From Microbacterium foliorum (GTDB taxonomy: Bacteria; Actinomycetota; Actinomycetes; Actinomycetales; Microbacteriaceae), in assembly GCF_006385575.1 (NCBI RefSeq), contig NZ_CP041040.1, positions 1,426,001-1,490,000 on the forward strand: a stretch of 64,000 nt of DNA, given 5' to 3'. How positions within the stretch are numbered: position 1 is the stretch's first letter; each line of letters starts with the position of its first letter. The notes below the pieces were generated by a model that was not told where the DNA came from, did no database searches, and saw only the letters and a list, made by a program, of their open reading frames with translations. Positions 33,979 to 37,244 of the stretch are shown here, in pieces. The position numbers were made by a program, and so were the translations under genes.

Positions 33979-35862
33979 TCAGGCGAGCGCGTGCGAGACC
34001 AGACGCTCGAGAGTGCGGATGCCGTCGCGCGACAGGATCGATTCCAGGTGGCCCTGCACCGATGCGAAGCGCTCGCCGCGAAGCGCGTAGACGTCGCCTG
34101 ATTCAGGGTCGGCCGACACTTCGACCGCTCCCGTCGACGTCGTGCCGGGCGTCACCCTGGCCGTGAAGGTGTTGTAAAAGCCGATCGAGGCGTCCTCGCC
34201 GAACACGGGGACCGACTTCTGCAGCCCCTGGTGCGGTGAGGCGAGGGGCGTCAGGGCGATGCCGAGACGATCGCTGAGGATCTGGTGGCTCAAGCACACC
34301 GCGAGCAGCGGCGACCCGGCGTCCACACGTCGGGACACCACCTCGCGCATCCTGGTGATGCGGTCGCTCCCGACGTCACGGGGATCGCCCGGGCCCGGGC
34401 CCGCGACCACCAGGTCGGCCGCGTCGAGCTCCGCATCATCGGCGTCGCTCCAGGCGCGGATCGTGACATCGAGCCCGAGGTGGCGCAACTGGTGGGCGAG
34501 CATGGTGGTGAAGCGGTCTTCCGCGTCGACGACGATCGCCGATCGGCCGGCGAAGGGCCCGGTCAGATCGTCGCCCTGCGGGTTCAGCCAGAAGTCCGCC
34601 AGGCGCGCATTGCGCGAAGAGAGCAGCTCCGCGACCGTGGGGTCGTCGGCGAGGGGCTGTCGCTCTCCCGGGGCGTCGGCATCATCGCGGGCCTCGGCGA
34701 CGCTGTCGCGATCGATCGCGCCGATCGCTCCGAGCACGCCGGCGGCCTTGCCGTGGGTCTCCGACACCTCGCCGTGCGGGTCCGAGTGCCGCACGAGCGT
34801 CGCGCCCACCGGCACGCTGAGTGAGCCGTTCTGCAGATACACGGTGCGGATCAGGATCGGGGCGTCGAGGTCGTGTCCACCGGCGTCCTTCGGAGTGAAC
34901 AGGGCCGCCACACCGGAGTAGTAGCCGCGTGGCTTCTTCTCATGACGGCGGATCACCGCGCACGCGTTCTGCATCGGCGAGCCGGTCACGGTCGGCGCGA
35001 ACATCGTCTCGCGGAGGATGTCGCGCGGGTCCAGCGCGCTGCGACCACGGAGCATGTACTCGGTGTGGGTGAGGCGCGACATCTCCTTCAGATGCGGGCC
35101 TGTGATGCGTCCTCCGTCGGAGCAGACGGCGCTCATCATCTTGAGCTCTTCGTCGACCACCATGAAGAGCTCTTCCGTCTCCTTGGTGGAGGAGAGGAAG
35201 TCCACCAGGGTCTCCTTCGTGGCTCCACCCGCGGGGTGGCGGAACGTGCCGGAGATCGGGTTCATGGTGACGACGCCGCCGCGTGCGACGACGTGCGCCT
35301 CAGGGCTCGCGCCGACCGCGATGTGTCCGGGGGTCACCACCGCGAAGGTCCAGTAGGCACCCCGCTCGTGCGTGAGCAGCGCGCGGAACCAGGTCAGGGC
35401 TGCAGTACGGTCGTCGACGTCGATCTCGGCGGTGAAGTCGCGGCGGATCACGAAGTTCGCGCCCTCGCCGCGTCCGATCTCGTCGGCGATCACGGTCTCG
35501 ACGATCGTGGCGTATTCCTCGTCCGGGATGTCGAAGCCGCCTTCACGCAGCGGCACGGCGTCCGAGGGAAGTGCCGAGAGCAGCTCGGGCGTGGCGATGT
35601 GCAGGTGCTCATCGACCACGATGCAGCGCAGGGGTGCACCGTCGTCCTGAGCGACGAAGCCGCGCTCACGCACCTGACGGTAGGGCACCATCGTGAAGAT
35701 CTCGCGGGGGGCGCCGTCGATCGTGAGCGGGATGTCGGCGAGCAGATCGACGTCGACGACTTCGCCGGTGAGCAGCTCGACCGTGTCTGCGCCGTCGCGC
35801 GCGATCAGCACGAACGATGCCGTGGGATCTGCAATGAGCTCGGCAAGACGTGAGAGGGTCAT
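33979..35862 (-). CDS. trpE: Fused anthranilate synthase, TrpE-TrpG (PhzE-like order)
   Basis: The 627-residue protein joins a chorismate-using TrpE-type domain (about 1-420; signature GSPMQNACAVIRRHE-like region and SGTFRHPAGG) to a class I glutamine amidotransferase (about 430-627). The amidotransferase triad is complete: Cys523 in AVCLSHQ, and His605/Glu607 in GHLES. The same length and order occur in phenazine PhzE, which makes aminodeoxyisochorismate, so sequence alone leaves the product open. The upstream leader peptide with two Trp codons and an attenuator argues for tryptophan synthesis. ATG 35862 has AGGAGACACCG before it. No other trp gene is adjacent. Confidence 0.88.
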   Translation of the reverse strand: MTLSRLAELIADPTASFVLIARDGADTVELLTGEVVDVDLLADIPLTIDGAPREIFTMVPYRQVRERGFVAQDDGAPLRCIVVDEHLHIATPELLSALPSDAVPLREGGFDIPDEEYATIVETVIADEIGRGEGANFVIRRDFTAEIDVDDRTAALTWFRALLTHERGAYWTFAVVTPGHIAVGASPEAHVVARGGVVTMNPISGTFRHPAGGATKETLVDFLSSTKETEELFMVVDEELKMMSAVCSDGGRITGPHLKEMSRLTHTEYMLRGRSALDPRDILRETMFAPTVTGSPMQNACAVIRRHEKKPRGYYSGVAALFTPKDAGGHDLDAPILIRTVYLQNGSLSVPVGATLVRHSDPHGEVSETHGKAAGVLGAIGAIDRDSVAEARDDADAPGERQPLADDPTVAELLSSRNARLADFWLNPQGDDLTGPFAGRSAIVVDAEDRFTTMLAHQLRHLGLDVTIRAWSDADDAELDAADLVVAGPGPGDPRDVGSDRITRMREVVSRRVDAGSPLLAVCLSHQILSDRLGIALTPLASPHQGLQKSVPVFGEDASIGFYNTFTARVTPGTTSTGAVEVSADPESGDVYALRGERFASVQGHLESILSRDGIRTLERLVSHALA

Positions 35863-35902
35863 CGGTGTCTCCTGTGCATGGCTCCGGCTCGGCTCAACGA
35901 AA

Positions 35903-35986
35903 AGACCGCCCCGGAGGCGGTCTGGATTCGTGGGAACGCGAACACACCGCCTAAGAGGCGGGCCACCAGGTGAAGTTCGCGAGCAT
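35903..35986 (-). promoter_or_regulatory. trp-type ribosome-mediated attenuator
   Basis: Four pairing segments can be seen on the minus strand. Segment 1, CCCGCCT (35962-35956), overlaps the end of the leader peptide. Segment 2, AGGCGGT (35952-35946), pairs with 1 or with segment 3, ACCGCCT (35921-35915), in seven perfect pairs. Segment 3 with 4 forms the terminator AGACCGCC/GGCGGTCT (35903-35923) followed by TTTT. Stalling at the Trp codons would free 2 to pair with 3 and prevent termination. Confidence 0.85.
35951..35986 (-). CDS. trpL: trp leader peptide
   Basis: The 11-residue peptide MLANFTWWPAS has two adjacent Trp codons (TGG TGG) just before the pairing segments of the attenuator and ends in TAG. 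It has no ribosome binding site, but TAGTTT ends seven bases before its ATG, so it is predicted to be translated from a leaderless mRNA. It is the sensor of charged tRNA-Trp for the anthranilate synthase downstream. Comparable leaders with two or three Trp codons are known in other actinobacteria. Confidence 0.88.
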   Translation of the reverse strand: MLANFTWWPAS

Positions 35987-35993
35987 GGCCTGA

Positions 35994-35999
35994 AAACTA
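35994..35999 (-). promoter_or_regulatory. Predicted -10 box (TAGTTT) of the trpL-trpE transcript
   Basis: On the minus strand TAGTTT is followed by seven bases and the trpL ATG. The divergent ispG -10 lies 80 bases away. Confidence 0.5.
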
Positions 36000-36079
36000 T
36001 CACACCGCGCACCGGCGCCCAGGTCGTATGACGCGCATGCGTGCCGTGCGGCATCCAGCCTGTGTGCATCCAAGCGGCG

Positions 36080-36092: not shown

Positions 36093-37244
36093 GTGCCAGC
36101 AGTGAATCTTGGGATGCCGAAGATCCCCGAAGTCCTCGCCCCGCGCCGCAAGTCTCGCCAGATCAAGGTGGGCAAGGTGCTCGTCGGCGGCGACGCCCCC
36201 GTCACCGTCCAGTCCATGACGACGACGAAGACGACGGACATCAACGCGACTCTCCAGCAGATCGCGGAGCTGACCGCATCCGGATGCGAGATCGTCCGTG
36301 TGGCCGTCCCCCATCAGGACGACGCCGACGCGCTGAAGATCATCGCGATGAAGAGCCAGATCCCCGTGATCGCCGACATCCATTTCCAGCCGCGCTACAT
36401 CTACACCGCGATCGACGCCGGGTGCGGCGCTGTGCGCGTGAACCCGGGCAACATCCGCGAGTTCGACGGAAACGTCGGCAAGATCGCCGAGGCCGCGAAG
36501 GCCGCAGGCGTCTCGCTGCGCATCGGCGTCAACGCCGGCTCGCTCGACCGCCGCATCCTGACCAAGTACGGCAAGGCGACCGCTGAGGCTCTCGTCGAGA
36601 GTGCTGTCTGGGAGGCCTCGCTGTTCGAGGAGCACGACTTCCACGACTTCAAGATCTCGGTCAAGCACAACGACCCGATCGTCATGGTGAAGGCCTACCG
36701 CCAGCTCGCCGAACGCGGCGACTGGCCGCTGCACCTCGGAGTGACCGAGGCCGGACCCGCGTTCCAGGGAACCATCAAGAGCGCCACGGCGTTCGGCATC
36801 CTGCTCGGTGAGGGCATCGGCGACACCATCCGCGTGTCTCTCTCCGCGCCTCCCGCCGAAGAGGTCAAGGTGGGGCACCAGATCCTGCAGTCGCTCAACC
36901 TGCGCGAGCGCAAGCTCGAGATCGTGTCGTGCCCGTCATGCGGACGCGCCCAGGTCGACGTCTACACGCTCGCCGAGAACGTGACCGAGGGTCTCAAGGA
37001 CATGACCGTTCCGCTGCGCGTCGCCGTCATGGGCTGTGTCGTGAACGGTCCGGGCGAGGCGCGCGAAGCCGACCTCGGAGTCGCCTCGGGCAACGGCAAG
37101 GGACAGATCTTCGTCAAGGGCGAGGTCATCAAGACCGTGCCCGAAGCCGACATCGTCGCGACGCTGATCGAAGAGGCCAACCGCATCGCGGTCGAGATGG
37201 GGCCTGAGGCGCCGCTCGGCACCGCGCAGGTCGTCACGGCCTGA
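36093..37244 (+). CDS. ispG: 4-hydroxy-3-methylbut-2-enyl diphosphate synthase
   Basis: IspG (GcpE) reduces MEcPP to HMBPP with a 4Fe-4S cluster, the penultimate step of the non-mevalonate pathway that dxr begins. The 383-residue protein has the TIM-barrel start [34 protein letters not shown], and [10 protein letters not shown]. The cluster ligands are the two cysteines of [11 protein letters not shown] and the later one in [17 protein letters not shown] short N-terminal extension precedes [15 protein letters not shown] 36093 lies seven bases after a TAGGCT box. It diverges from trpL-trpE. Confidence 0.96.

Follow-up and report, generated by a model that had tools for sequence, protein, structure and literature searches.

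Upstream of the fused anthranilate synthase gene trpEG, on the minus strand of the window (the whole stretch of 64,000 nucleotides analysed), lies an element which, judging from sequence comparison, is very probably (at a rough probability of 0.88) a real, conserved and working leaderless attenuator of trp transcription mediated by the ribosome. Read base for base, the minus strand carried the features proposed in the initial annotation: the short leader with tandem Trp codons 5' of the fused enzyme gene, three mutually exclusive pairings (1:2, 2:3 and 3:4) followed by a T-run, and a -10 hexamer at the distance from the leader start that had been claimed (Table 1). The interval 35903..36005 given there holds these elements except at one limit, since the T-run ends just outside it.

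Table 1. Features of the leader region and its neighbours in the 64,000-nt window.
Feature	Position	Strand	Remarks
-10 hexamer TAGTTT	35994..35999	(-)	Read directly; exactly 7 nt to leader ATG
TGA (extended -10)	36002-36000	(-)	Immediately 5' of TAGTTT
Leader ORF MLANFTWWPAS	35951..35986	(-)	Predicted leaderless
Leader stop codon TAG	35953-35951	(-)	Read directly
Tandem Trp codons TGG TGG, predicted sensor	35963..35968	(-)	Read directly
Segment 1, CCGCCT	35956..35961	(-)	Sequence, folding; covarying 1:2 stem
Segment 2, AGGCGGT	35946..35952	(-)	Shares last two bases of leader stop codon
Segment 3, GACCGCCT (GACCGCC(T))	35915..35922	(-)	Partner of segment 2 (antiterminator) or segment 4 (terminator)
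Segment 4, GGCGGTC	35904..35910	(-)	3' arm of terminator
Terminator T-run TTTT	35900..35903	(-)	Directly after GC-rich 3:4 hairpin
Shine-Dalgarno-like AGGAGA of trpEG	35868..35873	(-)	5 nt upstream of trpEG ATG; outside segments 3 and 4
trpEG, PhzE-type fusion, MTLSRLAEL..., probable anthranilate synthase	33979..35862	(-)	
ispG, divergent neighbour	36093..37244	(+)	NCBIfam ispG 425.6 bits, cut-off 280

The 3:4 hairpin and its T-run are situated 5' of a Trp gene and in the same orientation; the leader ORF with tandem Trp codons was found in the window and in its relatives, and the mutually exclusive pairings were obtained both from the sequence and by folding. Since ispG is divergent, the hairpin has to be assigned to the region 5' of trpEG; it cannot terminate an adjacent upstream gene of the same orientation. 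The other neighbour of trpEG encodes an RseP-like metalloprotease (115.8 bits, below its NCBIfam cut-off of 147.55). The trpEG frame on the minus strand stays open through the leader (window 35863-36069), so that gene callers may set the start of the gene too far upstream.

Fused TrpEG proteins of this type were present in 24 of 199 Microbacteriaceae genomes (E 3.4e-119 or better; next match 2.7e-23), and 23 of these 24 carried a leader with tandem Trp codons (WW) upstream of the gene, the exception being L022, from a genome of 1.4 Mb. A second set consisted of the best 80 of at least 572 confirmed loci in named records (73 titled Microbacterium, four Microbacteriaceae and three with the name of a higher group); the leader was found in 78 of them, and in the two misses the record extends just 115 and 1 nt upstream. 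A TrpEG match with one in-frame TAG was observed at L021 (1501-3294). At the order level, model R2 detected 49 of 396 genomes (E 1e-3), the matches preceding trpEG in 39 cases, trpS in four (L060, L061, L063, L068) and trpB in two (L077, L078), with four false matches. L080, L081, L082 and L084 were rejected as attenuators, as false positives with no WW leader. Scans of viral contigs found no relative.

TrpEG-type proteins appeared in 147 of 394 genomes of the class (1e-60), and upstream stretches were inspected at 34 loci from 33 of the 147. The WW leader occurred in 14 of 14 loci of family f38 and in 12 of the 20 others; five of the eight loci without it sit after an isochorismatase gene (one of these five isochorismatases was compared with the PDB and was closest to PhzD), and the other three are L206-L208. 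The broader model R3 matched 115 of 394 class genomes (1e-5). All 20 of its sampled matches away from trpEG preceded a Trp gene according to tblastn: trpS in 11 (L250-L258, L266, L269), a rhizobial-type clade-3 trpE(G) in six (L260, L262-L265, L267) and trpD in three (L259, L261, L268); NCBIfam supported the target gene in the five tested among these 20 class-level loci. The trpS assignments, made by tblastn for all order-level and class-level loci, were backed by NCBIfam for L060, L250 and L254, and NCBIfam likewise settled the trpB target at L077. Eight leaders, all before trpS, were without the usual spacing of the TANNNT hexamer (L060, L061, L063 and L068 in the order; L255, L256, L257 and L269 in the class). 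One genome, G868, carried two attenuators, before trpD (L259) and before trpE(G) (L260).

Conservation was counted in 155 unique leaders, the window and its relatives, a set that leaves out L022 (no leader), the four false positives, five duplicates (L036, L037, L038, L043, L046), the class-level loci without a WW leader (L195, L201-L203, L205-L208), L250-L269, and repeats from the trpEG-protein and R3 class searches. The run of Trp codons was two long in 144 leaders, three in ten and one in a single leader. An exact X..X'..X..X' pattern (k=5) was present in 101 of the 155; 100 dinucleotide shuffles gave 0.23 on average and never more than 2. The residues after WW drift (PAS, LTA, PTV, HTA, RSA and others), yet a hairpin is still formed from different bases, for instance CACACCGC/GCGGTGTG, CTCACCGC/GCGGTGGG and TCCGCC/GGCGGA.

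Covariation was scored in alignment A5, which comprises 79 of 88 loci and, being aligned to model R2, leans towards the R2 structure; the nine loci outside it, which did not reach E 1e-5 (L127, L191, L192, L194, L196, L198, L204, L209, L210), are class-level and beyond the order in eight cases. Two-sided changes affected seven of 13 pairs of helices 1:2 and 3:4, with 28 two-sided-change cells against a shuffled mean of 6.6 and none of 500 shuffles as high. When the partner was slid by +3 columns, the covariation score was 0.105 vs. 0.118 for the true pairing, and the two-sided cells were 1 vs. 28. For helix 2:3, no covariation above shuffles was detected in A5 (n=79), and likewise within the family; five of its six pairs form in 75-79 of the 79 sequences, and this nearly invariant helix can hardly vary because its segment is held by two partners. 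Within the family, the covariation score was matched by 4 of 500 shuffles (A1) or 63 of 500 (A2), a signal too weak or mixed, and wider sampling was therefore used. Ten weak opposite-strand matches in one model search probably arose from the self-complementary stems, and alignment A4, which contained them, was not used. The initial annotation had proposed looking in relatives for kept Trp codons and co-varying stems, and would have given up the attenuator had neither the WW codons nor the stems been conserved. Both are kept, and stems 1:2 and 3:4 covary.

The distribution of this constraint also bears on whether the region could simply encode the N-terminus of a longer TrpEG, a reading that is barely credible. 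The frame is open from 36069 and continues past the leader start in 43 of the 78 named-record loci, but in the remaining 35 an in-frame stop intervenes, the ATG at 35862 has a good Shine-Dalgarno-like site in front of it, and what is constrained is the WW codons and the stems.

Folding of the window leader with ViennaRNA gave -9.6 kcal/mol for the 1:2 hairpin and -14.4 kcal/mol for the 3:4 hairpin. With segment 1 masked, the growing RNA folded 2:3 (-17.4 kcal/mol) until segment 4 was made, and the minimum free energy then moved to a fold with 3:4. Left to fold freely from the point of stalling, the RNA finishes with 3:4 paired, so that antitermination would have to depend on kinetics, as the classical model has it. 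The stop codon lies inside the 1:2 hairpin, so that a ribosome at this codon, given the usual extent of its footprint, would cover segment 2; the RNA that it would leave free, folded from nine bases past the stop codon, contained 3:4. Hairpins right after the Trp codons averaged -9.73 kcal/mol, compared with -5.98 kcal/mol for shuffles.

From this anatomy we infer the start site, the ribosome coverage, the termination and the response to Trp. Sigma-A-type transcription would start at or beside the A of the leader ATG, and a ribosome would load on the bare 5' end and translate the leader peptide. With enough Trp-tRNA it would reach the TAG and cover segment 2, 3:4 would form and transcription would end; with Trp-tRNA in short supply it would stall on the TGG codons and cover segment 1, so that 2:3 would pair, 3:4 would be blocked and RNA polymerase would continue into trpEG. 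In the absence of a ribosome, 1:2 and 3:4 could both form and transcription would end. A conserved leader RNA acting on translation or via Rho, and not through an intrinsic terminator, is very unlikely: T-tracts were weak in 14 of the 155 leaders (fewer than three T in the 8 nt counted, in some of them because the script picked another hairpin), and no uridine-rich stretch follows trpL2 of S. lividans according to the portion of the published report consulted (PMC8079986), but 141 of the 155 had at least three T, and in the window the GC-rich hairpin directly precedes TTTT while the Shine-Dalgarno-like site lies apart from segments 3 and 4. Transcription attenuation remains the preferred mechanism.

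The leaderless start is predicted from the promoter spacing. TANNNT was situated 6-7 nt upstream of 25 of the 3855 ATG/GTG triplets in the window, and, for the 10 start codons of short (5-30 codon) WW ORFs on both strands, two of them nested in one ORF, this occurred at one, that of the leader. The hexamer ended 6-7 nt 5' of the start in 23 of 23 family leaders. The same spacing was found in all 78 leaders from named records (6 nt in 53, 7 nt in 25) and in 147 of the 155 unique leaders (200 shuffles gave a mean of 1.5 and a maximum of 5 of 155), and a hexamer at 5-8 nt accompanied a Trp ORF in 16 of 20 later class-level loci; start codons with the hexamer were preferred when choosing, which inflates these three counts, and the shuffles of the 155-leader set kept the chosen start. 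A TGN extension was present in 96 of the 150 unique leaders having the hexamer. The distance of 7 nt in the window would place the start at the AUG, as in a leaderless transcript, and the window leader is also without a Shine-Dalgarno site. A start inside or downstream of the leader ORF, which the initial annotation had named as its other refutation, is made less likely, indirectly, by this constant spacing in relatives.

If the leader were translated from a normal 5' UTR, with transcription starting further upstream, attenuation would otherwise be the same. The spacing is missing in a few leaders (no TANNNT at 6-8 nt in five of 167, four of them before trpS; none found in four of the 20 class-level loci, all before trpS). 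Against such a UTR stand the constant position of the hexamer in the family and named-record relatives, the result that a 5-mer Shine-Dalgarno core at -16..-4 was found in none of the 155 unique leaders (a looser 4-mer within 25 nt of the start in three of 23 family leaders), and the leaderless state, determined by RNA-seq, of the closely similar S. lividans leaders in the consulted portion of PMC8079986, and we regard this alternative as very improbable. Hexamer-to-start spacers of 4-9 nt (mean 6.3) are given for S. lividans in the same partly consulted report (PMC8079986).

L022, L206, L207 and L208, without a leader, presented TANNNT 6-7 nt 5' of an ATG in the trpEG frame itself. In these four, the switch seems either to have been excised from between a leaderless promoter and its gene or never to have entered there.

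Attenuation by trp leaders was already known in other bacteria, actinobacteria included, as stated in the initial annotation and borne out by the sections seen of papers on Streptomyces, Corynebacterium and S. meliloti. The combination of a leaderless start with attenuation, presented there as noteworthy, is not new: as far as the consulted parts of the literature go, it is in print for S. lividans (PMC8079986) and S. meliloti (PMC7298713), and the window element is a further member of an established type. TrpL1 and TrpL2 of S. lividans, before trpE and trpS, are leaderless by RNA-seq in the sections seen of PMC8079986. The trpL1-trpE and trpL2-trpS systems of strain TK24 described there share with the window the Trp leader and the hairpins, and their trpE and trpS targets match those of our element. 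From what is given there, TrpL2 has a single Trp codon vs. WW in the window, and the window leader is shorter, with 11 codons, WW and the stop codon inside the 1:2 hairpin. The S. lividans leaders MFAHSTRNWWWTAHPAAH and MMTRTCTQLWRAA, as printed in those sections, closely resemble those of family f37, of which MFALSTQNWWWTAPPAAR and MTTRTCTQLWWAA are closely like TrpL1/TrpL2. This likeness suggests that f37 is Streptomycetaceae. An attenuator in S. venezuelae was reportedly described by Lin et al. in 1998, and the C. glutamicum attenuators studied by Neshat in 2014 are said to be leaderless.

In S. meliloti, following the part of PMC7298713 consulted, the 5' end of rnTrpL is the trpL ATG, and trpL-trpE(G) resembles the window in having a trp attenuator before a fused anthranilate synthase gene; leader RNA and peptide there also act in trans, the organism belongs to a different phylum, and the window enzyme falls outside the NCBIfam-curated TrpE(G) clade. 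The trp and ilvB attenuators of Corynebacterium, in the excerpts available (PMC4046766, PMC5784534, PMC11995493, PMC1262725), have tandem Trp codons and alternative hairpins like the window; the C. diphtheriae ilvB leader is leaderless, as predicted for ours, while no start site was found for the trp leader of that species. Their trp operon has separate trpE and trpG, whereas trpEG is fused in the window, and they conserve gGCC-rGCy-GGCC triples vs. CCGCC/GGCGG. Classical trp attenuators were predicted in 2005 for Corynebacterium and Streptomyces (PMC1262725, in part), and PMC4833913 cites a survey of actinobacterial Trp attenuators dating from 2015. According to PMC5036795, Trp exerts no negative control over the trp genes of S. 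coelicolor, and mutations of the ilvB leader codons in this species were without effect, as told in PMC1262725; conserved leaders thus need not work classically in every actinobacterium. Searches for literature on a trp attenuator in Microbacterium returned, among the matches listed, work on other genera only. The Rfam model RF00513 (Trp_leader) was matched by the window over its whole length, yet with 28.1 bits against a gathering score of 41, and no family reached its gathering threshold in any of the 15 loci of relatives searched.

The downstream enzyme is a fusion, as initially annotated, but not a member of the curated TrpE(G) families: it obtained 166.6 of 645 bits with NF010081 and 150.8 of 739 with TIGR01815, and is of the PhzE type. 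Its best solved relative, aligned full-length over residues 26-625 (528.6 bits, 1.7e-157), is 3R74, which we take to be PhzE, the entry title being anthranilate/para-aminobenzoate synthase component I. A phenazine-type ADIC synthase, with a leader regulating secondary metabolism, would accord with this relative and with the scores below the cut-offs, but is most improbable. The genome holds three chorismate-binding proteins (TrpEG, a PabB-like protein slightly below its cut-off and an isochorismate synthase); no canonical TrpE was found in it with NF010086 at E <1e-100, although trpA, trpB, trpC and trpD are present. By the same threshold, our own choice, canonical TrpE is missing in 11 of the 24 family genomes with TrpEG (the other 13 have both) vs. 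12 of the 175 without (Fisher P = 4e-6, a value that overstates independence because three genera supply nine of the 11). No isochorismatase (PhzD) gene was found next upstream of trpEG in the window, where the neighbours are ispG and the RseP-like metalloprotease. In a quick tree built from 50 proteins, a branch with support 100 has all five isochorismatase-linked PhzE-type genes, which lack the leader, on the same side; leader presence needs three changes on this tree, in which 16 of 47 inner branches are open. PhzE itself is perhaps not an anthranilate synthase. The window TrpEG is probably the anthranilate synthase of this genome, and the only one, and the leader gives a regulatory reason to read this PhzE-type fused enzyme as belonging to the Trp pathway.

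What may be new is the extent of the element: the same architecture precedes Trp genes of five kinds in many actinomycete families and stays below Rfam thresholds in the window and the 15 loci sampled, pointing to an RNA family that the curated thresholds miss. Across the 155 distinct leaders, a large natural collection, the RNA is conserved and the peptide tail drifts; with them, attenuation in which ribosomes load leaderlessly can be probed by mutation in laboratory strains. Tentatively, and at somewhat less than even odds, the element could be a portable RNA module of actinomycetes, made up of a TANNNT -10 hexamer, a fixed gap of 6-7 nt, a leaderless Trp leader and a four-segment switch, below Rfam thresholds where sampled, which would have been recruited before PhzE-type trpEG, clade-3 trpE(G), trpD, trpB and trpS, sometimes twice per genome, and which could be lost, a promoter of the same spacing then driving trpEG directly (L022; L206-L208). 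If so, Trp attenuation in actinobacteria would include leaderless initiation as an integral component, and distant trp genes could be targets of the released leader RNA, as they are in S. meliloti.
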